A stretch of 43,852 nt of DNA from Candidatus Dorea intestinavium (GTDB taxonomy: Bacteria; Bacillota; Clostridia; Lachnospirales; Lachnospiraceae). This document shows, in pieces, positions 21,260-39,529 of this stretch (position 1 is the first letter of the stretch; every line of letters begins with the position of its first letter). Under the pieces are notes generated by a model that was not told where the DNA came from, made no database searches, and saw only the letters and a list, made by a program, of their open reading frames with translations. The position numbers and the translations under genes are program-made. The DNA is taken from assembly GCA_019113475.1 (NCBI GenBank), contig DXHJ01000106.1, positions 1-43,852 of the forward strand, in the 5' to 3' direction.

Positions 21260-22006
21260 CTATTTTATTTGCTGTAATCGTTCAAAAAGCTCTTTCGTCT
21301 CCTCTTTTGTCTCTTGATTTAAGACATAGACATTTTCGTCATCTTTCATAACAATGTATTCATCGTTTTTATTATAAACAAATAAGTAATATTTACCAAA
21401 GGCTTCATTCTTATAATTACCAGCGCTTACTTTAAGGTTCCCTTTGCCGCCAACACGGTCGCCGCGGTCAATATCACTTTCTAGAGTTATTTCCTTAATC
21501 CCCTGTAAATCAATCTTTTTATTCACTAGCGAGCCCGATTTTACCCGTAGATAATCATCCTTAAATTCATAGCTTATCTCTCCTCTAAATAAAAGTAGCA
21601 CAACAATAAAACAAGCGACAAGGCCCAGTACTAAGGCAATAATGTTATTTCTACTGTGTTTTCTATGGTCTTCTTTTGTCATGGTTACTTGCGGTGGATT
21701 TTCTACTTTGGCGTAGGTATGGGCCAAAACCAGCATTACAGCTATAGCTAACATCATAAAAATAAAGAGAAGGGTTCCTAAAAGCGGATGTTCCTCGCCA
21801 AATTCATTCATTAGAAAAAGTGCAATAGCAAGAAAACCTAGTCCACTACCGGTCACTCTACCTAGCTTTTTTGCATCATATTTTGCCTTATCTCTTTTAC
21901 TAGCCGTATTATAGCCAGCAATTAAAAAACTGCCTTTTCCACTCCATAAAATAATCGTAAGTATGGCAAAGATAATTGCCATTCCATTCAGAATATAATC
22001 ACTCAT
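21260..22006 (-). CDS. Membrane protein, DUF3784-like N-terminus plus bacterial PH-like domain
   Basis: A 248-residue protein of unknown function. Residues 1-110 hold three hydrophobic segments, with 'LIAGYNTASKRDKAKYDAKK' typical of DUF3784 membrane proteins between the first two. A fourth helix lies around residues 122-143. Residues 145-245 form a beta-rich region ('DYLRVKSGSLVNKKIDLQGIKEI', ending 'ETKELFERLQQI') that looks like a bacterial pleckstrin-homology fold. It is probably anchored in the cytoplasmic membrane. Start: ATG at 22006 follows AAGGAGG, and the longer frame to 22060 would read through the neighbouring terminator hairpin. It is monocistronic. Confidence 0.75.
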   Translation of the reverse strand: MSDYILNGMAIIFAILTIILWSGKGSFLIAGYNTASKRDKAKYDAKKLGRVTGSGLGFLAIALFLMNEFGEEHPLLGTLLFIFMMLAIAVMLVLAHTYAKVENPPQVTMTKEDHRKHSRNNIIALVLGLVACFIVVLLLFRGEISYEFKDDYLRVKSGSLVNKKIDLQGIKEITLESDIDRGDRVGGKGNLKVSAGNYKNEAFGKYYLFVYNKNDEYIVMKDDENVYVLNQETKEETKELFERLQQIK

Positions 22007-22043
22007 AAGCCCCTCCTTAATCAAGATGTTGTGGTGATGATAA

Positions 22044-22072
22044 AAAGGACACTTCACCAAGAAGTGTCCTTT
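22044..22072 (-). terminator. Terminator of the ABC importer operon
   Basis: A perfect 12-bp stem (AAAGGACACTTC / GAAGTGTCCTTT) around a 5-nt loop. On the minus strand it is followed by TTTTTATC, directly after the ATPase stop codon. Confidence 0.92.
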
Positions 22073-22074
22073 AA

Positions 22075-23037
22075 TTATACTATTAATTTGGTTTTTATGC
22101 CATTGTCGATTTTGATTCCTACTTCAGCTCCTACTTGCAAAGAAAAGTTTTCTTGCTCTCTAATTAGAATAATATCTTCTCGTACACGAAGATAATATTG
22201 ATTATAAAATCCTAAGAATTCGGATTTCGTAATGGTCCCGACTGCCTCAGAATTTTCTCTCTCCAAAGAGATACTTAAATCTTCTGGTCGACACTTTATT
22301 ATTTTTCCACTTTTCGTAGTAAAAGTATTAATCGGTCCTAAAAAACCCATGGTGTATTCATCTTTGGGTTGTAAGTATACTTCTTTTGGTGAGCCAACTT
22401 GTGTTAATCTACCTTCATGCATAATCCCAATCTTATCAGCAATTACCATGGCTTCTTCCCGGTCATGGGTAACAAAAATAGTTGTAATTCCAAATTGTCT
22501 TTGAATCTCTTTAATTTCTTCCCGCATTTTAATTCGTAGTTTGGCATCTAAATTGCTTAAAGGTTCATCTAATAATAATACTTTAGGTCTAGTAATTAGG
22601 GCTCTAGCAAGCGCTACCCTTTGTCTTTGTCCTCCGGATATTTCTCCTACCCCTGCTTTAGCGTAGTCTTTTAAGCCCACCGCTTCTAGAAATTTAGTAG
22701 CTTCTTTTAGTGCTTCTCTTTTCTTATAACCTCTAAATTTAAGGCCGTACATAACATTTTTTTCAACTGTCATGTTCGGAAATAAAGCATAGGACTGAAA
22801 GACAGTGGAAACAGGTCTTTTTTGTGGATCTTCTGTCGTGATATCTTCACCTTCAATTAAAATTCGACCACTGTCAGGTTTTAAGAAACCGCCAATCATC
22901 TTAAGGGTGGTGGTTTTCCCACAACCTGAAGCACCAAGAAGGCAAAGAATTTCTCCCTTTTCTACGCCAATCTCTAGTTCTTTTACTACTTTATGATGAT
23001 CAAAACTTTTACTAATCTTATCCAATGTTAGAAACAT
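22075..23037 (-). CDS. ABC transporter ATP-binding protein (PotA/FbpC type)
   Basis: A 320-residue ATPase. Walker A is 'GASGCGKTT' near residue 34, the Q-loop is 'VFQSYALFPNMTV', the signature is 'ISGGQRQRVALARAL' near 132, Walker B is 'VLLLDEPLSNLD', and the H-loop is 'FVTHDREEAM'. A TOBE-like C-terminal domain starts near residue 245. It powers the importer formed with the permease and binding protein encoded upstream. Its 5' end overlaps the permease gene by 20 nt, implying translational coupling. Confidence 0.94.
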   Translation of the reverse strand: MFLTLDKISKSFDHHKVVKELEIGVEKGEILCLLGASGCGKTTTLKMIGGFLKPDSGRILIEGEDITTEDPQKRPVSTVFQSYALFPNMTVEKNVMYGLKFRGYKKREALKEATKFLEAVGLKDYAKAGVGEISGGQRQRVALARALITRPKVLLLDEPLSNLDAKLRIKMREEIKEIQRQFGITTIFVTHDREEAMVIADKIGIMHEGRLTQVGSPKEVYLQPKDEYTMGFLGPINTFTTKSGKIIKCRPEDLSISLERENSEAVGTITKSEFLGFYNQYYLRVREDIILIREQENFSLQVGAEVGIKIDNGIKTKLIV

Positions 23038-24712
23038 AAGGTGCTCCTTTCTTTTTTCCTTTGGTTAAACCAATAAACAACAAATTCACCACGACGGTGC
23101 AAAAAATCAAAACAGTAGAAATCATCGAGGCTTCCGCATATTTTCCCGTATTAATCGCATCAAACAAGGTAAATACGGCGATTTTTTGACCTGGCGTCAC
23201 CAAGAAAATAACTGCTCCTGCTGTTACCATTGCACTAGTAAAATTATTGACAAAGCCTACCATAAAGGCATTTTTAATATTAGGTAAGATAATATCCTTT
23301 AAGATTTGGGGCTTTGTTGCCCCTAAGTCAGCTGCTGCTAAATCTAACTCTGTGGATAATTGGGTAAGCGAAGCCGAAGTTACTTTGGTAGTAATTGATA
23401 ATTGTTTAAAAATCATATTGAGGACAACGATCACCGCTGTTCCCGTTAGTTTAAGAGGCAGACTATTAAAAGCTAAGATGTAGCCAATCCCAAAACAAGA
23501 ACCAGGAATCATATAGGGAATGGTTACCACAAAATCCCAGAAACTACCTAGATAAATTTTTCTGCGGTCAATATAATAAGAAAGCAATATGCCAATAAGG
23601 CTGCCCACTAGAGCCACAATTAAGGCATAAGTAATGCTACGAATAAACGTGTCTGCACTGCGATTCATCATATTTTGAAAGGGTTCTAAGGAAAAATGTC
23701 GTTTCCCCTTTTTTAACTTACTAAAACTATTCAGGAAAATAGACCCATATTGTAAGGTCATTACACTATAAAAAAGCAAAGATAATGCGATTATCAAAAA
23801 ACCAATGAAGCCACCCGGTCGATACTCAGCCTTTTCTACCTTGGCTTCACTATTTTCCCGGGCTAACCAGCGCTCATTCTTTTTCATTAAGTAACGATAA
23901 AAAATAAAAACTATAATGGCCGGCACTAAGAGCAAAACATTCATGGCTGCGCTTTTTTCTAAATTCGAAAAGCCCACTAACTGCATATAAATTGCCGTTG
24001 CAAGATTTTCATATCTTCCCCCTATTACCACCGGCGTACCATAATCAGCCATCGAGCGAATGAACGAAAGTAAAAAGCAAACGAAGATTGCTGGTTTAAT
24101 TAAGGGCAATAAAACCAATCTATAGGTACTCGAATTTTTCCCGCCTAAATCTTTAGAAGCCTGTAATAAATTTCCATCGACTCGGTCTAATAAACCGATT
24201 AATAATAAGGCATTTAAAGAAGAAAAATAAATAGTTTGCATAATAACAACGCCGATAAAGCCATAAGGATTTAAGGAAAGGCCTAAAAGTCCATGGGTAA
24301 TACTGCCTCTTCTCCCAAAGAGTTGAATATATGCAAGTGAAGAAACAAAAGGCGGTGATACCATGGTAATCAATAAAAAGGTGGAAAATATAGCTTTCGC
24401 TTTAGGTTTTAAAAACACCACAAAAGAAGCCACCGCCACTGATAATAGGGTAGAAAATACTCCTGCTAAAAAAGCCACAAAAACGCTGTTCCATAAAAGC
24501 TTTTTGTTCTTACCAAACAATTCCTGATAAATAGAAAAACTTATGCCTGTTGGGGTTTTAACACTGCGCAAAACCACACATAAGATAGGATATAAAATAA
24601 ATAATAAAATTGCTACAATCAAAACAATAATCATTAATTTATCAATAATGATAAAAAGGCGGGAGCCTTTTGACTGCTCCCGCGTAATTTTAACTTCTTG
24701 CTTACTCTTCAC
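23018..24712 (-). CDS. ABC transporter permease, fused double-domain (FbpB/AfuB type)
   Basis: A 564-residue permease with about 12 predicted helices, made of two homologous halves. Each half has an EAA-type loop ('LLQASKDLGGKNSSTYRLV' near residue 182 and 'LDLAAADLGATKPQILKDI' near 460). This layout is typical of importers for Fe(III) or for phosphorylated compounds. The start is GTG at 24712 with GGGAG 6 nt upstream. It overlaps the binding-protein stop by 11 nt and the ATPase start by 20 nt, so the three genes form a tightly coupled unit. Confidence 0.93.
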   Translation of the reverse strand: MKSKQEVKITREQSKGSRLFIIIDKLMIIVLIVAILLFILYPILCVVLRSVKTPTGISFSIYQELFGKNKKLLWNSVFVAFLAGVFSTLLSVAVASFVVFLKPKAKAIFSTFLLITMVSPPFVSSLAYIQLFGRRGSITHGLLGLSLNPYGFIGVVIMQTIYFSSLNALLLIGLLDRVDGNLLQASKDLGGKNSSTYRLVLLPLIKPAIFVCFLLSFIRSMADYGTPVVIGGRYENLATAIYMQLVGFSNLEKSAAMNVLLLVPAIIVFIFYRYLMKKNERWLARENSEAKVEKAEYRPGGFIGFLIIALSLLFYSVMTLQYGSIFLNSFSKLKKGKRHFSLEPFQNMMNRSADTFIRSITYALIVALVGSLIGILLSYYIDRRKIYLGSFWDFVVTIPYMIPGSCFGIGYILAFNSLPLKLTGTAVIVVLNMIFKQLSITTKVTSASLTQLSTELDLAAADLGATKPQILKDIILPNIKNAFMVGFVNNFTSAMVTAGAVIFLVTPGQKIAVFTLFDAINTGKYAEASMISTVLIFCTVVVNLLFIGLTKGKKKGAPYVSNIG

Positions 24713-25781
24713 CTTTGTCTCCCATTAATGTTTCCCATTTTTCCAGGATAGTATCTCTTTGTGAACCAAATAAGGATAAATCTTCTTTCATCAGCTGTGC
24801 TTGATCAAAATCAAGTTCTAAACCTTTTAGTTCTGGTTTTACTAAAAGTGTAGTATTTTTCTTATCAATTCCAGCTAACATTACTTGATTTTCATCATCA
24901 CTAAAGAACCATTCAATAAAAGCTTTTGCAGCTTTGGTATTATCTGCATTAGCAAAAGCTGCTACTCCTTCTGGTACATAAGGCATGCCATCACTTGGAT
25001 AAATTACTTTAACATTAGCACTTTCTTCCAATTCATCAAGAGTACCATCTAGATAAGTAATACCAATGGCCACTTCGCCAGCTGCTACTTTTGTGCTTGG
25101 ATCTGATCCTCTTTTTGAATAATAAGCAACATTTTCATTTAAATCTTCAAAATATTTCCAGCCTGCTTCTTCACCTTTTTCTTGAAGTAGCGCATTTACT
25201 ACCGCATAGTTTGTTCCTGAAATTGCCGGATTTGACATCAAAATCTCACCCTTATATTGTGGATCTGTTAAATCATCCCAACTTTTTGGTTCTTCTAAAC
25301 CTTTTTCTTTTAAGATGTCTTCATTAACAATAAAGCCAACAACAGTAAGGCCTTTAGAGAAATAATAATTGTCACTATCTTTGTATTCAGGGGCTAAGTC
25401 TTTGCTTGCAGCAAAATCAACTTGCTCTAATAAATCATTTGCTTTTGCATCCATAAAAGCATCAATGCCGCCACCAAACCAAAGATCAGCTGCTGGCGTG
25501 CCACCCTCAGCTTTTAGTTTTGAAAGTACTTCTCCAGAAGACATAGAAATAAACTCTACTTTAGGACCCACCTCTTCGGTGTATTTGTCAAAAAGTGGTT
25601 GATATTCTTCACTGGTTGTAACAACTTTTAATGTTCCCTCTAACTTCTCGGTGGCTGCTTCTTTCTGAGAATCGGTTTCCTCTGTCTTTGTATCTTCTTT
25701 TACTTCTTCTTTTTTACCACAGGCTGCCAAACTAAAAACCATGGTTACCATTAGCAAAAGAGCAATAATTTTCTTTTTCAT
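24702..25781 (-). CDS. ABC substrate-binding lipoprotein (Fe(III)/phospho-compound family)
   Basis: A 359-residue binding protein with signal peptide and lipobox 'SLAAC' (C21), then an acidic K/E/T-rich linker to about residue 48. The mature fold begins 'LKVVTTSEEYQPLFDKYTEE'. 'GTPAADLWFGGG', 'DPQYKGEILMSNPAISGTNY' and 'GEVAIGITYLDG' are typical of the AfuA/FbpA/phosphonate group. The consecutive iron-binding tyrosines of FbpA that follow the 'GEVALG' segment are absent ('ITYLDG'). A phosphorylated or other anionic substrate is therefore at least as likely as iron. It is first in the operon, with a promoter sharing a 16-nt element with the double-cubane operon. Confidence 0.92.
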   Translation of the reverse strand: MKKKIIALLLMVTMVFSLAACGKKEEVKEDTKTEETDSQKEAATEKLEGTLKVVTTSEEYQPLFDKYTEEVGPKVEFISMSSGEVLSKLKAEGGTPAADLWFGGGIDAFMDAKANDLLEQVDFAASKDLAPEYKDSDNYYFSKGLTVVGFIVNEDILKEKGLEEPKSWDDLTDPQYKGEILMSNPAISGTNYAVVNALLQEKGEEAGWKYFEDLNENVAYYSKRGSDPSTKVAAGEVAIGITYLDGTLDELEESANVKVIYPSDGMPYVPEGVAAFANADNTKAAKAFIEWFFSDDENQVMLAGIDKKNTTLLVKPELKGLELDFDQAQLMKEDLSLFGSQRDTILEKWETLMGDKGEE

Positions 25782-25816: not shown

Positions 25817-25865
25817 TATATAGTAACATTTTTAATGAAAAAGGTCTTATTGTTGTTTTCGATAC
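25817..25865 (-). promoter_or_regulatory. Promoter of the ABC importer operon with shared 16-nt element
   Basis: On the minus strand AAAACAACAATAAGAC (25859-25844), then exactly 21 nt, then TATATA (25822-25817), then 35 nt to the binding-protein ATG. The same 16-mer with the same 21-nt spacing to a -10-like hexamer lies before the double-cubane gene (28277-28235). No consensus -35 is present. The 16-mer probably binds an activator or acts as a non-standard -35. Confidence 0.65.
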
Positions 25866-25901
25866 CGATTCATCTTTTATAGTTTTTATCTATTAATGTT
25901 T

Positions 25902-26660
25902 TTACCGCTTCTCCTGGGCTAAGTAGGAAGCACCTAAAGCCCCTGCATACTTTCCCAACTTTTGGTTTTTTACTTCTTGCTTTAACTTCCTACTTAAAAG
26001 AGTGGCGAAAAAATCATTTTCGCTTAAACCTCCGGTTAAAATTAGATTAGCTGGGAGGTTTTTCTTTCTACTAAGTTGTGCTACCTTTTCGGCTACAGAG
26101 TCAACAATTCCGGCAGCAATATCTTCTCTTTTTCTGCCTTCCCCAATATAGCTAATAATTTCCGATTCTGCAAAGACTGTACATAAGGAGCTAATGGGTA
26201 GCACCGTGCCACTTTCTGCTAATAAGAACAGTTCGTCTAACCCAATTCCTAGCCGATTAGCCATAACTTCTAGAAATTTTCCGGTACCAGCTGAGCATTT
26301 ATCATTCATAATAAAATCACTTACTAGGCCTTGCTCTAAAATAATGCACTTGGTGTCTTGACCACCTACATCGATAATACCACATGAATCACCTGCTAGC
26401 TCTTTACCGCCGCGCCCGTGACAAGTAATCTCCGTTATAATATGATCTGCATAATCTACTGCTATTCGCCCATACCCGGTAGCCACCACCTTGACATTAT
26501 CTGCTCTTACATCGATGTTTTCTTCTAAAAGATGCTCTCGAATCGCCTCTGCTGTTTCTTTACTACTCCAACCAGTTGGTACTACAAATTTTTCTTCTAA
26601 GTCTCCTCGCACCACAACCTTTGATGCGGTAGAGCCAATATCAATTCCTACATAAAACAT
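25902..26660 (-). CDS. Acyl-CoA dehydratase activase-type ATPase (HgdC/BadF family)
   Basis: About 252 residues with an ASKHA ATPase fold. The phosphate-1 loop is 'GIDIGSTASKVVV' and a second loop is 'GIIDVGGQDTKCI'. The two cysteines that bridge one [4Fe-4S] cluster across the homodimer in HgdC are in place: 'NDKCSAGTGKFLE' (about residue 122) and 'SSLCTVFAESE' (about 160). Such proteins use ATP to inject low-potential electrons into a partner, here probably the double-cubane protein encoded two genes upstream. Start: the first ATG (26669) touches AAAGG, so the ATG at 26660 with 9-nt spacing is more likely and gives 'MFYVGIDIG'. Confidence 0.93.
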   Translation of the reverse strand: MFYVGIDIGSTASKVVVRGDLEEKFVVPTGWSSKETAEAIREHLLEENIDVRADNVKVVATGYGRIAVDYADHIITEITCHGRGGKELAGDSCGIIDVGGQDTKCIILEQGLVSDFIMNDKCSAGTGKFLEVMANRLGIGLDELFLLAESGTVLPISSLCTVFAESEIISYIGEGRKREDIAAGIVDSVAEKVAQLSRKKNLPANLILTGGLSENDFFATLLSRKLKQEVKNQKLGKYAGALGASYLAQEKR

Positions 26661-26672
26661 TTTCTTCATCCT

Positions 26673-26927
26673 TTAGCAGTATTTATCCCTTTGCGGGTTA
26701 ATGTCTTCTTCTATCTCCACTATTTTTTCAATACTAATTTCTTTACCCTTAATAGTCTCTTGAATCTGTCGCAAATTTTCTTTTTTGACAATTAAAGAAA
26801 CTCCACAACACTTACTAGCGCTTCTTGGTGTTGGAGCAATTTTAGCATAGATTGTTTCTTTCCTTAATTCTCGGTAGAGACGCATCGCATTATCGTGATT
26901 AGGAAATAAAATATAATTCATCATCAT
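26673..26927 (-). CDS. DUF3343 small protein, putative Se/S carrier-like
   Basis: An 84-residue protein of the DUF3343 family, described in databases as putative Se/S carrier-like. The N-terminus reads 'YILFPNHDNAMRLYRELR' and the key feature is 'PRSASKCCGVSL' with adjacent cysteines near residue 40. A further cysteine is the last residue ('DKYC'). It starts with three tandem ATGs overlapping the stop of the double-cubane gene (TAATG) with no ribosome binding site of its own, so it must be translationally coupled. It lies 3 nt before the activase frame. The function is unproven. The context suggests delivery of sulfur or selenium, or redox support, to the reductase. Confidence 0.88.
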   Translation of the reverse strand: MMMNYILFPNHDNAMRLYRELRKETIYAKIAPTPRSASKCCGVSLIVKKENLRQIQETIKGKEISIEKIVEIEEDINPQRDKYC

Positions 26928-28201
26928 TAATTATTTAGCATCTCGATAAAAGCGCTAATTCTTGTTCTTAATTGTTGGGCATCACTATCTGTATAATCAG
27001 TTTCAATACCTAGTACCGGAATGCCGGCTTCTTTCATGGCTCTTTCTACTAAGAATCCTTCTGTATCATATAAATTACAAAATTTAAGGTTTACATCGAT
27101 AATACCATCTACTTTATACTCCTTAGCCAGTCTTAAAATATCATCGATTCTACCCGTATTGGGGGTAAAACAAGCACAATTAATCTTCATGTAACGTTCT
27201 GCTAAGGCTTCGATTTCTTCATCTATAGTCTCTGCTTTTTCATCCACAAAATTTTCAAAATAACGAGTTCCCGTGCAGGTTTCTTCACAGACTACAATTG
27301 CTCCACTGGTTTCAATTAATTGGTGAAGTTTCCAGTTAGGAATTGCCATTGGCGTACCCGTTACCATAATTCGTTTATCTCCTTGTTTACAAACGCTAAC
27401 GCCATTTGTTACTCGCTCTTCTAGCTCATCACAAAGCTTATTTGTCATGGTTGCAAAACGAACCGGATCATCATAGAAAGCAATTTGGGAAATCAATAAA
27501 ACATCTCTTCCGCTAATAGGCACATTTTCTTCTTTTCTAAAGTTATAAAGTCTTGCTAATGCTCTTCTCTTATCACCAATAATTTTAATACTTTTCTTTA
27601 GTGATTCAGCGGTAATTTTATTTCCGGTTTCTTTTTCAACCATTTCCATTAAAGATCTTATTTCTTCTTCCCAAGCCTTGATGTCTTTTGCTCGCTTCAT
27701 TTGTGGTAAATCCATAACATACATAGGAACATCTTCCCCCAGAATTTCCCAGGCTTTTTTCTTACCGTCACAAGTTGTTTCTCCTATATATACATCCGCA
27801 ATCCTAAAAAATGGACAGGTCCGATCAAGTCTTGCTCCTACAGAAGCTTTAATTAGTGGACAAGTATTGGTTGGCAGTACCTTTTCTCCCCCTGGCACCC
27901 AAAACTGAGAGCCACCACAAAGTCCAGTAGCAATTCCCTTAGCGGCAATAATTACTTCATCTGGTACATAAACACAGAAGGTCCCAAAAACTTTGGTGCC
28001 GTTTTTTTGTGCTTCGATAAGCTCCGCTGGTCTAATGCCATGAATATCCGCAACCACCATATCAAAGAAATCCATACTTTCTGGTCTGTTCTCTTGTGAT
28101 AAGTAAACATCCCCAAATGCTTGTGGCAAAACATCACATAAGACATCATGCATTTCCAAATCCATTCCTAGTTCTTTCCACATTGTTTGATTATCAGCCA
28201 T
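26927..28201 (-). CDS. Double-cubane-cluster-type reductase (2-hydroxyacyl-CoA dehydratase superfamily)
   Basis: A 424-residue HgdB-like protein. It contains 12 or more cysteines, including C76 ('GTFCVY'), C95 ('GLCGGS'), C114 ('TNTCPLIK'), C129 ('RTCPFF'), C144, C305/C309 ('VCEETCTGTRY'), C342/C344 ('NCACFTPN') and C375. The layout resembles double-cubane-cluster proteins, which carry an [8Fe-9S] cluster and reduce small molecules with ATP-driven electrons from an activase. The single-subunit arrangement, with no HgdA-like partner, argues against a classical 2-hydroxyacyl-CoA dehydratase. It is first in the operon with DUF3343 and the activase. GGAGG precedes the ATG. The physiological substrate is unknown. 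Confidence 0.88.
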   Translation of the reverse strand: MADNQTMWKELGMDLEMHDVLCDVLPQAFGDVYLSQENRPESMDFFDMVVADIHGIRPAELIEAQKNGTKVFGTFCVYVPDEVIIAAKGIATGLCGGSQFWVPGGEKVLPTNTCPLIKASVGARLDRTCPFFRIADVYIGETTCDGKKKAWEILGEDVPMYVMDLPQMKRAKDIKAWEEEIRSLMEMVEKETGNKITAESLKKSIKIIGDKRRALARLYNFRKEENVPISGRDVLLISQIAFYDDPVRFATMTNKLCDELEERVTNGVSVCKQGDKRIMVTGTPMAIPNWKLHQLIETSGAIVVCEETCTGTRYFENFVDEKAETIDEEIEALAERYMKINCACFTPNTGRIDDILRLAKEYKVDGIIDVNLKFCNLYDTEGFLVERAMKEAGIPVLGIETDYTDSDAQQLRTRISAFIEMLNN

Positions 28202-28234
28202 TTTATCCTCCTTAGTAATATATATTTTCCTATT

Positions 28235-28283
28235 ACCATACTAGCACTATGGTGGATATTCGTCTTATTGTTGTTTTGTATCG
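28235..28283 (-). promoter_or_regulatory. Promoter of the double-cubane operon with shared 16-nt element
   Basis: AAAACAACAATAAGAC on the minus strand (28277-28262), 21 nt, then TATGGT (28240-28235), then 33 nt to the ATG. The layout is nearly identical to the promoter of the ABC importer (25817-25865). The six bases before the element are CGATAC here and GTATCG there. Confidence 0.65.
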
Positions 28284-28306
28284 TTGCCGGCAATTATTAT
28301 TTTTTT

Positions 28307-29452
28307 CTATAGAGAAACTATTTCTCTAATTGCCTTTAGACACGTAAGTACTTCCTCTTCTTGATTAAAAGCACCAAAAGAAAAGCGTACCGTTCCCTCT
28401 GGAAAGGTTTTTAAACTTTTATGAGCCATTGGTGCACAGTGAAGACCTACTCTCGTTAAAATTTGGTATTCACTTTCTAATTGATAAGCGACCCTAGCAT
28501 TATCTCTTCCCTTAAAATCAAGCGAGACCACCGCTCCTCGACCAGCTATACTTTTCTTACCAACAATCCTTACTGCTGGTATTTCTTTAAGTCCTTCTAA
28601 AAACTGCTTTGTTAAGTTCATCTTCTCTTGATGAATTGCTCTTATTCCTCGTTTTTCTAAATATTCTAAAGCTTTATTTAAACCCAAGATTCCTGGCAAA
28701 TTTAAGGTACCGCTTTCAAAACGATCGGGTAAAATTTCCGGCATTTGTAATAAATTAGAAAAACTGCCTGTTCCCCCACTAATCAGAGGCTCAATCTCTT
28801 TTTCGCCTTTTTTTGAAAGCATAAAACCGCCGATTCCTTGTGGTCCTAAAAGTGCTTTATGTCCAGTAAAGGTTAAAAAGTCAATCCCCTCTTCTTCCAT
28901 GTTAATAGGTAAGTCTCCTGCTGATTGCGCCGTATCAAGAATAAACAGTAAATTCCTTTCCCGGCAAATTTGACCAATTTCTTGAATGGGCATAATAGTC
29001 CCACAGACATTGGAGGCTTGTAGCATCACTACGGCTTTCGTATTGTCCTTAATTAGCTCGTTAATATCGGAGGCTTTAATGCTTCCTTCCTCATCTGCTT
29101 GAAGGAGATCAAAACTTACACCCTGTTCTTTTAATTGTGTTAAAGGACGCATTACCGCATTATGTTCCATGCTGCTAGTTATAATATGGTCTCCTTTTTT
29201 TAAGACACCTTTTAAAACCATATTTAGTGAATAAGTAATATTAGGGGTAAAAATCACATTTTTTGAATGTTTACAGCCAAATAGACGCGCTAACCGTTCT
29301 CGACACTCTAATACTTCTAATTCCACATTATAAGAGCCTTCATAATTTCCTCTATTAATATTAAAGGCCCCTTTTTCAATAAAATCAGCCATGACTTTAC
29401 CAACTCCCGGGGCTTTAGGAAATGAAGTGCTACCATTGTCAAAATTAATCAT
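28307..29452 (-). CDS. Cysteine desulfurase-like class V aminotransferase
   Basis: A 381-residue PLP enzyme. It starts 'INFDNGSTSFPKAP' and has 'SSMEHNAVMRP', 'LDTAQSAGDLPI', the PLP lysine in 'FTGHKALLGPQGIGG' near residue 205, and 'RFESGTLNLPGI'. The active-site cysteine region is 'RVGLHCAPMAHKSL' near residue 360. This is the SufS/CsdA-like branch known from Enterococcus EF2568 and relatives (TIGR01977-like), sometimes linked to selenium-dependent gene sets. It would release sulfur or selenium from cysteine or selenocysteine. It lies 105 nt upstream of the double-cubane operon on the same strand. GGGAGG lies 8 nt before the ATG. Confidence 0.92.
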   Translation of the reverse strand: MINFDNGSTSFPKAPGVGKVMADFIEKGAFNINRGNYEGSYNVELEVLECRERLARLFGCKHSKNVIFTPNITYSLNMVLKGVLKKGDHIITSSMEHNAVMRPLTQLKEQGVSFDLLQADEEGSIKASDINELIKDNTKAVVMLQASNVCGTIMPIQEIGQICRERNLLFILDTAQSAGDLPINMEEEGIDFLTFTGHKALLGPQGIGGFMLSKKGEKEIEPLISGGTGSFSNLLQMPEILPDRFESGTLNLPGILGLNKALEYLEKRGIRAIHQEKMNLTKQFLEGLKEIPAVRIVGKKSIAGRGAVVSLDFKGRDNARVAYQLESEYQILTRVGLHCAPMAHKSLKTFPEGTVRFSFGAFNQEEEVLTCLKAIREIVSL

Positions 29453-30692: not shown

Positions 30693-30724
30693 TTTATCTA
30701 TCAATAATCTCACCTATAGATAAA
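30693..30724 (+). promoter_or_regulatory. Operator-like inverted repeat at the transcription start of the ArsS-like operon
   Basis: TTTATCTAT (30693-30701) and ATAGATAAA (30716-30724) form a perfect 9-bp inverted repeat with a 14-nt centre. It begins 2 nt after the -10 and covers the expected start of transcription. This is suitable as a repressor site or 5'-UTR hairpin. There is no T-tract, so it is not a terminator. Confidence 0.5.
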
Positions 30725-30769
30725 ACCTATTTTACACTTTCGTTAGCGATGTATATAGTAGAATATATT

Positions 30770-31468
30770 ATGAATTGGATAAGAAAAAATAAGAAAATAA
30801 TCATCTTTATTGCCCTGTTTTTTAGTGTTTTTCTACTTAATAAAATATTGAATTTGTCAGGTTATCTAGATATTCTAGATCATCTGGCTTTTTTGGAGCG
30901 TCTTATTAAAGACAATATTATTTTTGCTCTGCTTATTTATATCGGATTAACTATAATAGGTTCCGTTTTATTGGCACTTCCTGGCATTACTTTTGCCATT
31001 GCCGCTGGCCTGCTATTTGGTCCGTTTCTAGGCACCCTCGCTTGCACTATTGCTGCTACCCTTGGTGCCATTGCTTCCTTTATCATTGGAAGATTCTTTT
31101 TAAAAGATGGTCTGAAACCTTTCATTCAAAAGAATGACTATCTAAACCGTCTGCTTTTTAATAATAATAGTAAAAATGATCTCTTTATTTTAATGATTAC
31201 AAGGCTCGTTCCGCTTTTTCCCTATAATTTACAAAACTTTGCTTATGGGATTACGGATATGAAGTTATCCACTTATGCAATATTTTCCTTTCTTTTTATG
31301 ATTCCTGGTACGGCCATGTATACCATTGGGGCCGCTGGGATTGCGGATAAAGAAAATAGAGGATTACTAATTACAATTACTATGGTTTTAGCTGTTGCTA
31401 TGATTATTTTGGGCCGCTATTTGAAGAAAAAATTTGTCAATACGGAGAACCTCCATGAAGAGAAATAG
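30770..31468 (+). CDS. TVP38/TMEM64 (VTT/DedA-like) membrane protein
   Basis: About 232 residues with five or six hydrophobic segments. VTT-family features are 'LALPGITFAIAAGLLFGPFLGT' and 'RLVPLFPYNLQNFAYGITDMKL', the conserved Arg-Pro re-entrant region, followed by 'PGTAMYTIGAAG'. The family is thought to act in membrane lipid or small-molecule transport, but this member's role is unknown. Start is uncertain: ATG at 30749 and ATG at 30770 are in frame and neither has a clear ribosome binding site. I prefer 30770, which gives a positively charged N-terminus followed by the first helix. It is first gene of the ArsS-like operon. Confidence 0.85.
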   Translation: MNWIRKNKKIIIFIALFFSVFLLNKILNLSGYLDILDHLAFLERLIKDNIIFALLIYIGLTIIGSVLLALPGITFAIAAGLLFGPFLGTLACTIAATLGAIASFIIGRFFLKDGLKPFIQKNDYLNRLLFNNNSKNDLFILMITRLVPLFPYNLQNFAYGITDMKLSTYAIFSFLFMIPGTAMYTIGAAGIADKENRGLLITITMVLAVAMIILGRYLKKKFVNTENLHEEK

Positions 31469-32432
31469 AACCCTTGATACTTCTTTATGTATCCATTGTA
31501 AAAAGTGCACAGAAAATTGCTTGTTTTTAACAAAATACAACTTAGATTTTGGAGACAGCAAACAAATTAATGACCTTGCTTATCACTGTTATCTTTGTGG
31601 AAAATGTACTGAAGTTTGTCCTGTAGGAATTGATGGTCGAGAAGTTATTTTAAGAGCAAGACAAAAAGCAGTAAGAAAAAATAAAGGTAAAATTAAAGGC
31701 TATCACTTTCTGCGGCTAGAAAAGCAAAACTATATTTTCAAAAATTATAAAAGGGCAAAGGGAAAAATTATCCTTTTCCCTGGGTGTAATTTTCCGGCTT
31801 TTTACCCGGAAACAACGAAATGCCTTTATACTTTTTTAAAATCCCATTTTAAGATTGGGATTGCCTATGACTGTTGTGGTAAACCGATTGCTGAACTTGG
31901 CTTAGAAAAAGAAGCTAATGAAATTATTGCCAGACAAAATCGTTATTATAAAGAAAATAACATTGCGGAAATTGTCGTCCTTTGTCCTAATTGCTATTAC
32001 TATCTTTCCCCTTTATTAGAAGTAAAAGTTACGAGTATTTATGAAAAACTTCACGAAATCGGCTTCAAGGGCACTATCAAAGAAGATATTTTTAATTTAT
32101 TTATTCCTTGTCCTGATAAAGAATCCCTTAAGTGGAAAAAGGAAATCCTCCCCTTTTTAGACGGTGAGGTAAAAGATATTTCCGGAATTCAATGCTGTGG
32201 TGTCGGCGGTTGTGCTCATCTAACTGAGCCGGAACTTTCAAAAACTCTACTGGAAAATTTAAAAAAGAAATCTTTAGAAAACGTTTATACCTATTGTGGA
32301 ACTTGTGGCGGCAATATTTCTCGATCTGGCGCTAAAGAGGTTCACCATCTTTTACCAGAACTATTAAAAACCAGAGAAGTTGCTGATATTAAGCACTCCT
32401 TAGTGAATAGAATAAAAACAAAATATAAATAA
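31455..32432 (+). CDS. Fe-S oxidoreductase, ferredoxin plus two CCG domains (HdrD/GlpC-like)
   Basis: About 325 residues. An N-terminal bis-[4Fe-4S] domain has C12, C15, C18, C22 and C45, C48, C51, C55. It is followed by two CCG cysteine-rich domains: 'AYDCCGKPIAE' with 'CPNCYYY', and 'QCCGVGGCAHL' with 'YCGTCGGNI'. In heterodisulfide-reductase-type proteins CCG domains bind noncubane clusters or serve thiol/disulfide chemistry. It probably passes electrons to or from the radical SAM step or a thiol intermediate in this operon. Start: ATG at 31455 has GGAG 7 nt upstream and overlaps the VTT gene by 14 nt. Confidence 0.9.
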   Translation: MKRNRTLDTSLCIHCKKCTENCLFLTKYNLDFGDSKQINDLAYHCYLCGKCTEVCPVGIDGREVILRARQKAVRKNKGKIKGYHFLRLEKQNYIFKNYKRAKGKIILFPGCNFPAFYPETTKCLYTFLKSHFKIGIAYDCCGKPIAELGLEKEANEIIARQNRYYKENNIAEIVVLCPNCYYYLSPLLEVKVTSIYEKLHEIGFKGTIKEDIFNLFIPCPDKESLKWKKEILPFLDGEVKDISGIQCCGVGGCAHLTEPELSKTLLENLKKKSLENVYTYCGTCGGNISRSGAKEVHHLLPELLKTREVADIKHSLVNRIKTKYK

Positions 32433-32447
32433 TAAAGGAGATTACAA

Positions 32448-32780
32448 ATGAATACTTATTACAATCCTGAAGACTTAGCAAAATTTGGAACGATCGGAGA
32501 AAAGGCCCCAAGCCTTGCCGAAAAGTTTTTTGATTACTACGGCGATGTTTTCGCTGAAGGTGCTTTAACTGCTCGCGAAAAAGCTTTAATCGCCCTTGCT
32601 GTAGCAACGGCCATTCAATGCCCTTATTGCATTGATTCTTACACTAACACTTGTTTAAACATGGGTGTAGACGAAACTCAAATGACCGAAGCCATTCATG
32701 TAGCAGCAGCAATAAGAGGCGGTGCTACCTTAGCTCACGGCGTGCAAATGAAAAATATTGTCAAGAAATTGGAGTTATAA
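32448..32780 (+). CDS. AhpD-like carboxymuconolactone decarboxylase family protein (ArsS-associated)
   Basis: A 110-residue single-domain protein. The redox pair is 'CPYCIDSYTNTC' near residue 57, followed by 'EAIHVAAAIRGGATLAHG'. The usual AhpD histidine four residues after the second cysteine is replaced by the sequence 'IDSYTN'. Close relatives are annotated as arsenosugar-biosynthesis-associated peroxidase-like proteins because they sit beside ArsS-type radical SAM genes, as here. It probably handles thiol/disulfide or peroxide chemistry in the pathway. AAAGGAG precedes the ATG. The next gene begins 4 nt downstream. Confidence 0.9.
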   Translation: MNTYYNPEDLAKFGTIGEKAPSLAEKFFDYYGDVFAEGALTAREKALIALAVATAIQCPYCIDSYTNTCLNMGVDETQMTEAIHVAAAIRGGATLAHGVQMKNIVKKLEL

Positions 32781-32784
32781 TCTT

Positions 32785-33738
32785 ATGAGTGATGTAATGG
32801 ATTTTAATGAGCATTTAATCGCTTCTGATTATGCTTATACTGCTAAGAATTTAGATGTTATGCAAATGAACTTAGGAAAGCTTTGTAACTTAAGTTGCAA
32901 ACACTGCCACGTAGAGGCTGGGCCAAAACGTACCGAAATCATGCCTTGGTCTGTTATGGAAGCTTGTCTTTTAGTTTTCGAGAAATATAAAATGAAAACC
33001 ATCGATATTACCGGTGGTGCTCCAGAAATGAACCCTAATTTTGAAAAGCTTCTGCGAAAGGCTGCCAAGATTTCTTCTCATGTCATTGTCCGGACAAACT
33101 TAGTAATTTTAAAAGAGGAAAAATACGCTCATTTTCTCGATTTATATAAAGAGCTTAAGATAGAGGTTGTCTGCTCTCTTCCTTATTATCGTCCTGATAC
33201 TATGAACCGAGTCAGGGGAGATGGAACTTTTGAAACTTCTATCGAAATCTTACAAAAATTGAATCAATTAGGTTATGGCAGGGAAGAGGGACTGGTTTTA
33301 AACCTTGTCTATAATCCCTCAGGTGCTTTCTTCGCTCCGCCCCAAGAAACTATGGAAGCCGAATACAAATACCATTTAAAGAAAGATTTTGCTATTGATT
33401 TTAATCATCTTTTTACCATTATTAATAATCCCGTGGGACGTTTTGGTGCTTTCCTTAAAAGAAGTGATAATTATGATGGTTATTTAAAGAAACTAGAAGA
33501 AAGCTTTAATCCGGCTACACTTGAAGGCATGATGTGCCGTTTTCAATTATCAGTAAGCTATGATGGTTCTGTTTATGACTGTGATTTTAACCAAGCAATT
33601 GACTTAAAAATCACTTCTGATAAGACCATCTTTGATCTTGTTTGCGAGGATTATTCTCCTCGTAAAATACAATTTAAGAATCACTGTTATGCTTGCACAG
33701 CTGGTCAAGGATCAAGTTGTGGTGGTGCTACAAATTAG
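32785..33738 (+). CDS. ArsS-like radical SAM protein
   Basis: 317 residues. The radical SAM motif 'LCNLSCKHCHVEAGP' carries C34, C38 and C41. It is followed by 'DITGGAPEMNP' and 'GLVLNLVYNPSGAFFAPPQ'. The C-terminus holds further cysteines, 'CDFNQA', and the hallmark tail 'HCYACTAGQGSSCGG', which likely binds an auxiliary cluster. The match is to the family named arsenosugar biosynthesis radical SAM (seleno)protein ArsS. Here the tail has cysteine, and no in-frame TGA is seen. Start: ATG at 32785 has TTGGAG 10 nt upstream. The substrate in this organism is uncertain because no ArsM methyltransferase is present. Confidence 0.92.
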   Translation: MSDVMDFNEHLIASDYAYTAKNLDVMQMNLGKLCNLSCKHCHVEAGPKRTEIMPWSVMEACLLVFEKYKMKTIDITGGAPEMNPNFEKLLRKAAKISSHVIVRTNLVILKEEKYAHFLDLYKELKIEVVCSLPYYRPDTMNRVRGDGTFETSIEILQKLNQLGYGREEGLVLNLVYNPSGAFFAPPQETMEAEYKYHLKKDFAIDFNHLFTIINNPVGRFGAFLKRSDNYDGYLKKLEESFNPATLEGMMCRFQLSVSYDGSVYDCDFNQAIDLKITSDKTIFDLVCEDYSPRKIQFKNHCYACTAGQGSSCGGATN

Positions 33739-33747
33739 GAGAAAATT

Positions 33748-34155
33748 ATGACAAAAAATGATATAAATACGGCTTTTGCCGAGGGAACCGATTGTTCCCA
33801 GCTTGTTTTGGAAGCCTTTGCTGATAAACTAGCGATGGATAAAGATTTAGCTCATCGCATTTCTGCTGCTTTTGGTGCCGGCATGCATCAAGGTGAAACT
33901 TGTGGCGCAGTAACTGGCGCCGGTATGGTTTTAGGCCTTAAATATGGAAATGACAAAGAACTTTTGCTCACAAAAACAGAAGAATTTAGAAACCAAATAG
34001 CTAAAAAATATAATTCTTGCATGTGCAAAGGGATTCTTGGCTATGATATTAGTAAAGAGGAAGAGCGAGCAAAAATACTAGAAGAAAATTTATTGTTTAT
34101 CACTTGCCCAGCTGTAGTTTTAGATTCTATTGAAATTTTGGAGAAGCTTTTATAA
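33748..34155 (+). CDS. C_GCAxxG_C_C family redox protein
   Basis: A 135-residue small protein with the named cysteine pattern: Cys in 'TDCSQLV' (about 17), 'GETCGAVTGAGMVLG' (about 51), 'SCMCKGILG' (about 91-93) and 'ITCPAVV' (about 115). Relatives occur beside redox and ArsS-like genes. A thiol-redox or metal/cluster-binding role is likely but unproven. It starts 9 nt after the radical SAM stop with AGGAG. Its stop codon overlaps the glycosyltransferase start (TAATG). Confidence 0.9.
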   Translation: MTKNDINTAFAEGTDCSQLVLEAFADKLAMDKDLAHRISAAFGAGMHQGETCGAVTGAGMVLGLKYGNDKELLLTKTEEFRNQIAKKYNSCMCKGILGYDISKEEERAKILEENLLFITCPAVVLDSIEILEKLL

Positions 34156-35483
34156 TGAAAAAAGCCATTATTATTTTTACTAGGATACCAGCAGAAGGAA
34201 AAACAAAAACTCGGCTTATGCCGAGTTTTTCTCCTAAAGAATGTAAAGACTTTCATATCGCTACTTTAAGGGACCTCTATGATGTTTGTGCCTCTTGCAA
34301 AAAAGACATTATTCTTAGTTACCTAGCAGATGGTGATTTTGCCTCTTTTAAAGCTTTGTTCCCAGCAAATGTAAGATTTATCCCCCAAAGAGGAACTAAT
34401 CTTGGTGAACGTATGTACTATGCTTTACTTGATGCTTTACAAGTCTATGATTGTTGCCTTCTTTTAGGAACCGATGTGCCAGAAGTTAGTAAAAAAGATT
34501 TAAAGCAAGCCTTTTCTTTTTTAAAAAATAAAGACGTTGTTCTCGGTCCCACTTTTGATGGGGGGTATTTTTTAGTTGGCATGAAAAAGCCTATTAAAGA
34601 ACTTTTTAAAGATAAAACTTATAGCCATAGTGAAGTGTTTAAAGAAGCTTATGACTCTGTCACTCCTAATTATTCGGTAGGAATTTTAACAAAAAAGCAT
34701 GATATGGATACGCTGGCAGATATCAAAAGTTACAGAAAACGTTTACAAACAGCTTCTTCTAAACATTATACTTTTACTCGAACACAAAAATTCCTAATAA
34801 AAAAAGAGCTGATTTCCATTATTATCCCCATTTATAATGAAGAAAAAACTATTAAGGACTTACAAAAACAATTGTGGCCGCTTAGAAAAGAATGTGAGAT
34901 CATCTTTGTTGATGGCGGCTCAACTGATTTAACTAAAGAATTAATTTATCCCGATTTCACTTTACTTTTCTCCGGTAAAGGAAGGGCTAATCAAATGAAT
35001 GCTGGCGCCAAAATAAGTCATGGTAGCATCTTATTTTTTCTTCATAGTGATAGTTTTTTGCCTGCTAACTTTTTAACTGAAATTAGAAAAGTTATGATTG
35101 GTCATTCCTTTGGTGGCTTTGGTATTTCTTTTCTCTCTAAGAGCCCTTTAATGCGCATCAATGAGCATTTATCTAATAGACGAATGAAAAGAGGAATTAT
35201 CTTTGGCGATCAAGGGATTTTTATTGACCGTACTCTTTTCTTTAAGATTGGCTTGTATCCTAATATTCCCATTATGGAGGATTACCAGTTATCTCTAACC
35301 TTAAAAAGCCTAGGAATTCGTCCCGGATTTGCCACTAAAACAATTGCAACTTCCGCTAGACGTTATCCCCAAGGCTTTTTAAAGAAACTTTTATTAATGG
35401 CTCAGATGGCAAGACTTCGTTCCGCTTATCGAAACGGAGTTGCCCCCGATTTAATTGCTAAAAAGTATAAAGACATCCGTTAA
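34155..35483 (+). CDS. Fused double glycosyltransferase (TIGR04282-like + TIGR04283-like)
   Basis: 442 residues in two domains. Residues 1-195 form a DUF2064/TIGR04282-like nucleotidyl/glycosyltransferase ('KKAIIIFTRIPAEGKTKTRL', 'LLGTDVPEV', 'LGPTFDGGYFLVG'). Residues 214-442 form a GT2 enzyme of the TIGR04283 type ('ISIIIPIYNEEKTI', 'FVDGGSTDLT', 'GKGRANQMNAGA', 'FGDQGIFI'). Separate or fused versions accompany ArsS genes. In that pathway they are presumed to build or modify a sugar-linked product. No signal or membrane segment is obvious. There is no internal ATG with ribosome binding site at the domain junction, so the fusion appears to be a single protein. It is last in the operon, 4 nt from the stop of the convergent VTT gene. 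Confidence 0.9.
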   Translation: MKKAIIIFTRIPAEGKTKTRLMPSFSPKECKDFHIATLRDLYDVCASCKKDIILSYLADGDFASFKALFPANVRFIPQRGTNLGERMYYALLDALQVYDCCLLLGTDVPEVSKKDLKQAFSFLKNKDVVLGPTFDGGYFLVGMKKPIKELFKDKTYSHSEVFKEAYDSVTPNYSVGILTKKHDMDTLADIKSYRKRLQTASSKHYTFTRTQKFLIKKELISIIIPIYNEEKTIKDLQKQLWPLRKECEIIFVDGGSTDLTKELIYPDFTLLFSGKGRANQMNAGAKISHGSILFFLHSDSFLPANFLTEIRKVMIGHSFGGFGISFLSKSPLMRINEHLSNRRMKRGIIFGDQGIFIDRTLFFKIGLYPNIPIMEDYQLSLTLKSLGIRPGFATKTIATSARRYPQGFLKKLLLMAQMARLRSAYRNGVAPDLIAKKYKDIR

Positions 35484-37380: not shown

Positions 37381-38238
37381 TTACTTTTCAAAAGCTGCCT
37401 TTGCATCTGCACCTTTGGCACCATCTTTAATAATGAAAAGTTGATCCGCTTTAAATCCAGCATCTTGTAACAGAGATACTCCTGTTTTTGCACATTTGTT
37501 ACCACTGTAACACATGAAATAGACAGGTTTTGCTGGATCAAGATCATTAGACATTTCTACAAGTGACTTTTGAAGTTTTACATCTTCAACATCAGTAAGG
37601 TCGGAATGAAGAGAACCTGCAAGGTGACCTGCCTCAAAGTTTTCATCATCACGAACGTCAATGATTTGCGCATCTTTGTCAGCGATTACATCTTTTGCTT
37701 CGGCATATTGCCAGTCAATGTTTTCATCAACACGACTTGTTGTAAGTGCATTTTTCATCTTTGCAAGTGCTTTAGCGCCACCTTCAACGGTATAGATTAA
37801 ATCTTTATCAATGCCAGCATCTTCTAAAACGCCTGTAGCTTTTTGTGCTCCACGTTGTCCGCTATTGCAAACAATATAAATTTCTTTACCATCCATTAGC
37901 TTATCTTTAGCATAAGTTGTCATTTTTTCAACTAATGATTCGTCTTCTAATGGGAAGATTGGGCACCATTGTGAATTAATAAGTCTGCCTTCTACATAGT
38001 TATCCCATTCTCTTACGTCAAGAATATGAGTCTCGCCAGCTTTAGCTGCTTTTAGTGCCTCGTCGGCAGAAACATATTGCCATTCGCTTTCTTCTTTCGC
38101 ATCGTCCGTTTTAGCACTTTCTTCGGTTTTCGTATCTTCTGTTTTTGCTTCCTCTTTACTACCACATCCCATAGCCAGTGTACCAGCTAAAAGAATTGTC
38201 GCACCTAATAATACTATTTTTCTTTTCACTTTCTTCAT
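37381..38238 (-). CDS. Double-rhodanese lipoprotein
   Basis: 285 residues. A signal peptide with lipobox 'LAMGC' (C25) and an acidic K/E/T linker precede two rhodanese domains, about residues 55-165 and 175-283. Both carry an active-site cysteine: C124 in 'VCNSGQRG' and C243 in 'MCYSGNKC'. It should sit on the outer face of the membrane and transfer or bind sulfane sulfur. It is convergent with the kinase-fold gene (6 nt gap). Its promoter contains a palindrome (38274-38302). Start note: AAGGAGG abuts the ATG at 38238. A GTG at 38229, with 9-nt spacing, is an alternative initiator and would remove three residues. Confidence 0.93.
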   Translation of the reverse strand: MKKVKRKIVLLGATILLAGTLAMGCGSKEEAKTEDTKTEESAKTDDAKEESEWQYVSADEALKAAKAGETHILDVREWDNYVEGRLINSQWCPIFPLEDESLVEKMTTYAKDKLMDGKEIYIVCNSGQRGAQKATGVLEDAGIDKDLIYTVEGGAKALAKMKNALTTSRVDENIDWQYAEAKDVIADKDAQIIDVRDDENFEAGHLAGSLHSDLTDVEDVKLQKSLVEMSNDLDPAKPVYFMCYSGNKCAKTGVSLLQDAGFKADQLFIIKDGAKGADAKAAFEK

Positions 38239-38302: not shown

Positions 38303-38362
38303 GTAGCTTAAAGAAAGTGATAATCGTTATTTTTGATAAGTAAATATTTTAATAGTTCATTT

Positions 38363-39529
38363 CTATAACTGTTTTTCATCTTTACGGATAATAACATTTG
38401 CTACCATAAATAACATGTTAATAGCAATGGCAATAATAATAACCGCCATACCACCTTTAATGCCGGTATGCTTTGCCACGGTTCCGACAATACTTGGCAT
38501 AATAATTGCCCCAAAGCTGCCAATGGTAAGAAGCATTCCTAGGCAAGTTGGGTATTCTTTGACAACGTCGCCAATGCTGGCAATCGTAGTAGCATAGATT
38601 CCGGCCATGAAAAGGCCTACCCCGACAACACCAATAGAAGTAATCACCGAATGGTGAACAAATAATAAAATTAAAGCAAAGATTACGTAACCAATACTAG
38701 TACCTAATAATAAATATTGCTTTTTAATTTTTGTCGAAACAAAAGCGGTTAGTAGTCTACCAATTAAAATAACCAGCCACAAGACACTAGTCATTACTTG
38801 GGAAAACTGGCTACTTAAGATGCCTGAATCTTGTAAATAGGTAACAAGCCAACCATTAATGGATTGCTCTGCACAAAGGTAAAAGAAAATAATTCCAGTT
38901 GCGACAATAAAATATTTATTCTTTAAAAAGGACCAATCAGTTTTTGATCCATCTTTTGCTGCTGGATAGTTATTTGGCACATTCATAAAGAAAACAATCA
39001 GTAAGGATGTTAAAATCAAGGCTGCTTCAGTCAACGCCATGTACATCCAGTTGTGAGGATTGTTCTTGGTGAAAATAAGCACTAAAAAGGGTGCTAGAAA
39101 TGCGCCAATAGAAAAAACTGCATGTAATAAATTTAGCGCCCAAGCTTTACCTGTTGCTACTTCATTGACAACCGAGTTGTTAAAGTTACTAACTGCTCCA
39201 CGGTTTACGCCGGTAAAGAAAAAGGCTAGGATTAGTAAAGCTGGATTTGACGTTCTGGTCATTAAAACAAACGCAATAACACCAAAAGTACCTAAAAATA
39301 TCAATGTATTCTTTCTACCAAATTTAATCGGTAAAATACCGCCTAAAAAACTAGATACTAAATTACCAATGGCGTGAGCAGAAACAAGAAAACCACCGAT
39401 TTGATAATCTAAACCATAGGTATCACGAATAAAGGGTAGAAGTGAACCGATTAAAAGCGTTAGTATCCCATTGACAAAAAAGATATAATAACACCGAACA
39501 AAGATCCCTCTTGTTTCTTTAGTTGTCAT
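38363..39529 (-). CDS. MFS transporter
   Basis: About 388 residues with 12 predicted helices. Features include 'GFLVSAHAIGNLVSSFLGG' in TM2, 'KFGRKNTLIFLG' (MFS loop motif), and 'LNLLHAVFSIGAFLAPFL', typical of the sugar/FucP-like or uncharacterised MFS branch. The substrate is unknown. Start: the frame opens with TTG at 39538, but GCGGAGG abuts it. The ATG at 39529 is 9 nt from that site. The gene overlaps the 3' end of the HIT gene by 11 nt, so the two are cotranscribed and coupled. Confidence 0.9.
   Translation of the reverse strand: MTTKETRGIFVRCYYIFFVNGILTLLIGSLLPFIRDTYGLDYQIGGFLVSAHAIGNLVSSFLGGILPIKFGRKNTLIFLGTFGVIAFVLMTRTSNPALLILAFFFTGVNRGAVSNFNNSVVNEVATGKAWALNLLHAVFSIGAFLAPFLVLIFTKNNPHNWMYMALTEAALILTSLLIVFFMNVPNNYPAAKDGSKTDWSFLKNKYFIVATGIIFFYLCAEQSINGWLVTYLQDSGILSSQFSQVMTSVLWLVILIGRLLTAFVSTKIKKQYLLLGTSIGYVIFALILLFVHHSVITSIGVVGVGLFMAGIYATTIASIGDVVKEYPTCLGMLLTIGSFGAIIMPSIVGTVAKHTGIKGGMAVIIIAIAINMLFMVANVIIRKDEKQL

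Follow-up and report, generated by a model that had tools for sequence, protein, structure and literature searches.

Two neighbouring operons in the genome of Candidatus Dorea intestinavium, one for a double-cubane-cluster reductase and its partners, the other for a three-gene ABC importer, carry the same 16 nucleotides, AAAACAACAATAAGAC, ahead of their first genes. The locus raises the question of what this element is and whether it ties the two operons together. The DNA analysed, called the window here, is a stretch of 43,852 nucleotides, and the features under discussion are listed in Table 1. The initial annotation had placed both copies on the minus strand with no third one in the window, each 21 nt from a -10-like hexamer (TATGGT or TATATA) that lies 33 or 35 nt, respectively, ahead of the ATG; positions, copy number and distances were all borne out. 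Nor is the 16-mer common genome-wide, since a search of the 1.90-Mb draft genome returned two exact copies and none with one mismatch. With two mismatches allowed there were seven copies, as many as for the reversed control pattern. We propose that both copies are probably the promoter-proximal parts of a predicted two-part operator for the selenium-metabolism regulator LysR_Se (NF040786), which would place the reductase and importer operons in one selenium regulon.

The reductase is related to structures 6eno and 7yyl. The desulfurase-family gene upstream of it is a conserved neighbour of the reductase in relatives; its product scores 408 bits with the model for the selenocysteine lyase SclA, under the cutoff of 525. 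The best models for the importer are PhnS2, PhnT2 and PhnU2 (putative 2-aminoethylphosphonate), all of them below cutoff (195 of 393, 329 of 458 and 210 of 593 bits, respectively). By sequence, the importer's binding protein is closest to the solved chains 8x1a, 4r72 (named Fe3+-transport) and 6wce (pyridoxal-phosphate-binding). We take 4r72 to be AfuA, a sugar-phosphate binder. Directly behind the importer ATPase gene lies a gene for a DUF3784/bacterial-PH-domain protein (21260-22060, minus strand), possibly the fourth of the operon.

Table 1. Genes and promoter features of the reductase and importer operons (window coordinates).
Feature	Position	Strand	Remarks
Cysteine-desulfurase/selenocysteine-lyase family protein, upstream of reductase	28307..29452	-	TIGR01977 above cutoff
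Upstream dyad, reductase operon	28292..28311	-	TATAGAAAAAAATAATAATT (ATAG-N7-TAAT); score 16.1 with other-genera matrix
16-mer copy 1, promoter-proximal	28262..28277	-	CAAT 29 bp downstream of dyad core
Reductase promoter core	28235..28266	-	weak -35 AAGACG (28266-28261); -10 TAGTAT (28243-28238) or TATGGT (28240-28235)
Double-cubane-cluster reductase	26927..28201	-	NF040772, 505 bits (cutoff 350)
Putative Se/S carrier protein (DUF3343, PF11823)	26673..26927	-	
BadF/BcrAD-type ATPase, activator of reductase	25902..26669	-	TIGR00241 above cutoff
Upstream dyad, importer operon	25875..25894	-	AATAGATAAAAACTATAAAA (ATAG-N7-CTAT); composite ranks 3rd
16-mer copy 2, promoter-proximal	25844..25859	-	CAAT 30 bp downstream of dyad core
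Importer promoter core	25817..25848	-	weak -35 AAGACC (25848-25843); -10 TACTAT (25825-25820; extended, TGT) or TATATA (25822-25817)
ABC importer, solute-binding lipoprotein (AfuA/PhnS2-like)	24702..25781	-	
ABC importer, fused double permease (PhnU2-like)	23018..24712	-	
ABC importer, ATPase with TOBE domain (PhnT2-like)	22075..23037	-	

The exact 16-mer had to be rejected as a family-wide motif: in 150 family genomes, matches with at most one mismatch were about as frequent as for the reversed control, and at the loci examined in other genomes nothing similar to the reductase or importer genes lay near such matches. When promoters were aligned across relatives, as the initial annotation had advised, the 16-mer was not kept, but a two-part element recurred. 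In 38 reductase loci of relatives, ATAG is followed after 7 nt by C[AT]ATAAA and, about 30 nt further on, by an A-tract with CAATAA; 24 nt past CAATAA comes ATTG at -35, and then TGTTACGGTWAT at -10. These loci were chosen by the CAAT/ATTG spacing and TGnTA, while ATAG and the A-tract were not selection criteria. The position of the window promoter core is occupied in the relatives by TGTTACGGTWAT or TGTTATGGTAAT, and the window 16-mer resembles their middle (CAATAA) site. The flanks of the two copies, described earlier as different, are indeed unlike at base level, but they contain a related dyad of LysR type (T-N11-A) that had gone unseen: ATAG-N7-CWAT, located 29-30 bp upstream of the CAAT within the 16-mer, which itself abuts a weak -35 box. 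The importer has the form ATAG-N7-CTAT and the reductase the degenerate form ATAG-N7-TAAT. The 16-mer thus looks like the promoter-side half of a larger, putative regulator binding site.

Two arrangements of this site can be told apart. In both window promoters, and in the importer promoters of three relatives (G077, G283 and G117), CAAT stands directly ahead of the -35 box, in the order CAAT, -35, 17 nt, -10; it is 21 bp (two helical turns) nearer than in the relatives' reductase promoters, while the dyad is still 29-30 bp upstream of it. Searched rigidly in 397 genomes, the reductase-type layout of the relatives gave six matches, all six at a reductase start, against none for the control. 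The importer-type layout of the window gave eight, where the control gave three; the eight comprise a seleno_YedE gene, a second-type double-cubane reductase, two importers and four others. Among the eight importer carriers, no dyad was found ahead of the importer in three (G229, G236 and G295), and the profile of the relatives' whole reductase promoter recognises neither window promoter. An RNA element was ruled out, as there is no conserved structure. The whole-promoter profile has partial matches upstream of sugar-type ABC binding proteins in two genomes (G191:C11:227293, E 4e-4; G077:C20:33145, E 0.004), and in G199 the reductase-type element is duplicated ahead of the desulfurase-family gene, 1.3 kb upstream of the reductase promoter (profile E 1.7e-9).

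A two-part (composite) matrix was trained solely on double-cubane-reductase promoters of other genera and run over both strands of 1.036 Mb (54%) of the Dorea draft genome. With matrices and spacings refined after inspection of the window, whose genome had no part in the training, the window reductase promoter ranked second (26.8) and the importer promoter third (26.5); the best controls scored 15.6 and 18.1. The first rank (29.8) went to the promoter of a betaine-reductase operon (G000:C15 3784-6163, minus strand) with a selenoprotein B gene containing an in-frame UGA, a BCCT betaine transporter gene and part of selenoprotein A, and the fourth (22.5) to a site upstream of a C-GCAxxG-C-C (seleno)protein gene. 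The scores of the short motifs by themselves overlap those of controls. The 16-nt left-arm matrix matches about 4% of upstream regions on either strand and was therefore set aside as evidence by itself; the dyad alone was likewise judged unspecific, because, when 1.04 Mb was scanned with it, several matches scoring above the importer site fell in coding sequence. Two further sites in the window may be mentioned. A dyad-like site, TATAGATAAAACCTATT (30715-30731), lies just ahead of the -35 box of an arsenosugar-type operon (30749-35483, plus strand; VTT, dicluster Fe-S, TIGR04169, ArsS (TIGR04167), C-GCAxxG and TIGR04282/04283), a candidate third regulon member, and a weaker composite site (38348-38367, minus strand), whose score of 17.9 is close to the best of the controls, is found upstream of a double-rhodanese-domain protein gene (37381-38238).

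The most likely regulator of both promoters is the selenium-metabolism LysR. The Dorea genome encodes one NF040786 protein (G000:C188:2104-3003; 401 bits, cutoff 250), between selB and a set of sclA-like, seleno_YedE and YedF-like genes. The best dyad match in a 541-kb sample of the genome is at G000:C188:3006, 6 nt behind this very gene and ahead of the sclA-like gene. Of 30 NF040786 loci, 21 have their top-scoring dyad 6-108 nt behind the LysR match, typically in the form TATAGA-N5-TCTATA. An NF040786 match above cutoff is present in 79 genomes out of the 397 of the family; all eight importer carriers belong to these 79 (hypergeometric p = 2e-6, with genomes treated as unrelated), as does every carrier of this reductase that was checked. 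In G117 the element is flanked by the LysR gene and the importer, which are transcribed divergently. G236 has its LysR gene a short distance behind the importer, and the importer of G229 is followed by an sclA-like gene. Taken together, composite ranks two and three, the adjacency of dyad and LysR gene, and the co-occurrence in eight of eight carriers lend good support to the earlier suggestion that one regulator may serve both operons.

Among the alternatives, the one that fares best, though we consider it improbable, is that some other LysR-family protein, for instance a regulator of sulfur or methionine metabolism, uses the element as its operator, and that the overlap with selenium genes arises through proteins common to both pathways. 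The MET-box of streptococcal MtaR is TATAGTTTNAAACTATA; our element shares its TATAG/CTATA half-sites and its 17-bp length but has a different gene set. The inclusion of cysteine-desulfurase-family proteins and a rhodanese-domain gene among the putative targets would also fit such a regulator. Against it stand the location of the site directly behind NF040786 genes in most loci, the selenoprotein operon as top match in the own genome, and the presence of NF040786 in all importer carriers.

The initial annotation had further suggested that the importer supplies the reductase with its substrate, iron or sulfur, so that the two would form one functional unit. This idea, which has in its favour that the operons adjoin in the window and have a control element in common, does not agree with their distribution, and we give it little credence. 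Among 80 reductase loci from other genomes (74-82% identity), most keep the genes for the desulfurase-family protein, reductase, carrier and activase as a group, but not one has the importer binding protein next to the reductase. The importer occurs in seven other family genomes (47-79% identity), of which three have a distant reductase ortholog and four have no ortholog; conversely, no close importer homolog was found in four sampled reductase genomes. Given that these 80 loci never show the two operons adjacent and that either is found in genomes lacking the other, we regard them as independent units that happen to adjoin here. A common selenium signal is the more likely link between them than substrate supply.

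Still slightly less credible is the view that these are just two sigma-A promoters of the ordinary kind, each with A-rich DNA upstream and a GAC-type -35 box, which share 16 bases by chance and have no regulator in common. Repetition as such is unremarkable here, because the window contains six independent repeats of at least 16 nt, and A-rich stretches ahead of -35 boxes are common in the Dorea genome. It is the placement of the 16-mer, not the bare repeat, that is remarkable. Of all 14-16-mers in 230 upstream regions from 541 kb, with the Shine-Dalgarno zone excluded, it alone recurs in a second region equally far from the start codon; for 16-mers, a Markov model predicts 0.05 such pairs. 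Coincidence also sits badly with a matrix trained elsewhere that puts both promoters far above controls, and with the same layout being kept in the importer promoters of three relatives.

The choice of -10 hexamer is ambiguous, as TAGTAT and TACTAT are spaced just as constantly as TATGGT and TATATA. They lie 17 nt from AAGACG and AAGACC (TGNTANTAT), the usual sigma-A geometry of this genome. Judged from sequence by the sigma-A criteria (TTGACA, about 17 nt, TATAAT), spacing and -10 fit and the -35 boxes match at three of six positions. Those poor -35 boxes are what speaks for a non-standard sigma factor at both promoters, as the initial annotation had considered, but the 17-nt spacer, the extended -10 and the distance to the start codon are those of ordinary sigma-A promoters in the Dorea genome, and importer promoters of the same layout in relatives have near-consensus boxes (TATAAT, TTGAAA, TTAACA), so that such a factor is not needed and is very improbable.

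Our data thus suggest a model for the LysR_Se operator and its action. LysR_Se would sense selenium status, perhaps via selenophosphate, and would occupy the upstream part of the operator, a T-N11-A dyad of the form ATAG-N7-CWAT (best form TATAGA-N5-TCTATA). It would also contact the second part, CAAT, positioned 29-30 bp (about three helical turns) downstream and abutting the weak -35 box AAGAC[C/G] of a sigma-A promoter, and would recruit RNA polymerase, thereby activating a promoter with a poor -35. On this model both the reductase operon and the importer would belong to one selenium regulon and would not form a substrate-supply pair; what the importer takes up may be a selenium (or sulfur) compound. 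The model is weakest at the reductase dyad, which is degenerate and scores only 4.6 with a matrix derived from LysR-adjacent sites, and in those three of the eight importer carriers where no recognisable element precedes the importer. We are considerably more tentative about function: it is conceivable that the importer is a dedicated, LysR_Se-controlled importer of selenium compounds, and that the reductase and its DUF3343 partner act in selenium (or sulfur) reduction or trafficking.

What we newly propose is the form of the operator, its two spacings, and the importer as a LysR_Se target. If the proposal is right, LysR_Se gains an operator open to experimental test, to our knowledge the first defined DNA target of this bacterial family, and a double-cubane reductase of unknown role is placed in the selenium regulon. 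Since the importer shares the predicted operator with the reductase operon, it becomes a testable candidate for selenium uptake, so that a specific ABC importer would be nominated for this role in Lachnospiraceae-type anaerobes.

The prediction of LysR_Se rests on its gene context, which links it to DUF3343, YedE and a 2-hydroxyglutaryl-CoA-dehydratase-like gene; its authors put forward selenophosphate as the effector (Lin et al., 2015; PMC5322559); the term "binding site" is absent from the text of that paper, and in the literature searched, mostly outside subscription journals, we found no operator described for the family. In Methanococcus maripaludis, selenium depletion raises YedE and an ABC importer of PhnU/PgtC type (MMJJ_09770-09790), which is like the importer of the window by annotation (PhnU-like permease, PgtC-like binding protein). 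That importer is archaeal, however, and its deletion had no absolute phenotype, as use of the tested selenium species was not abolished; to its authors' knowledge, no specific selenium transporter had been identified by 2024 (PMC11097638). The likeness to LysR_Se/HrsM itself lies in the Dorea homologue beside selB and the sclA-like, yedE and yedF genes, and in the recurrence of the element beside genes of the family, but archaeal HrsM has been described as a repressor of Cys-encoding isogenes (PMC11097638), whereas we propose an activator. LysR-type promoters generally have a distal T-N11-A site and a second site near the -35 box. The window promoters match this arrangement, with the dyad about 30 bp upstream, whereas the reductase promoters of relatives differ from it in having the pair of sites 21 bp (two helical turns) further upstream and an extra ATTG at -35.
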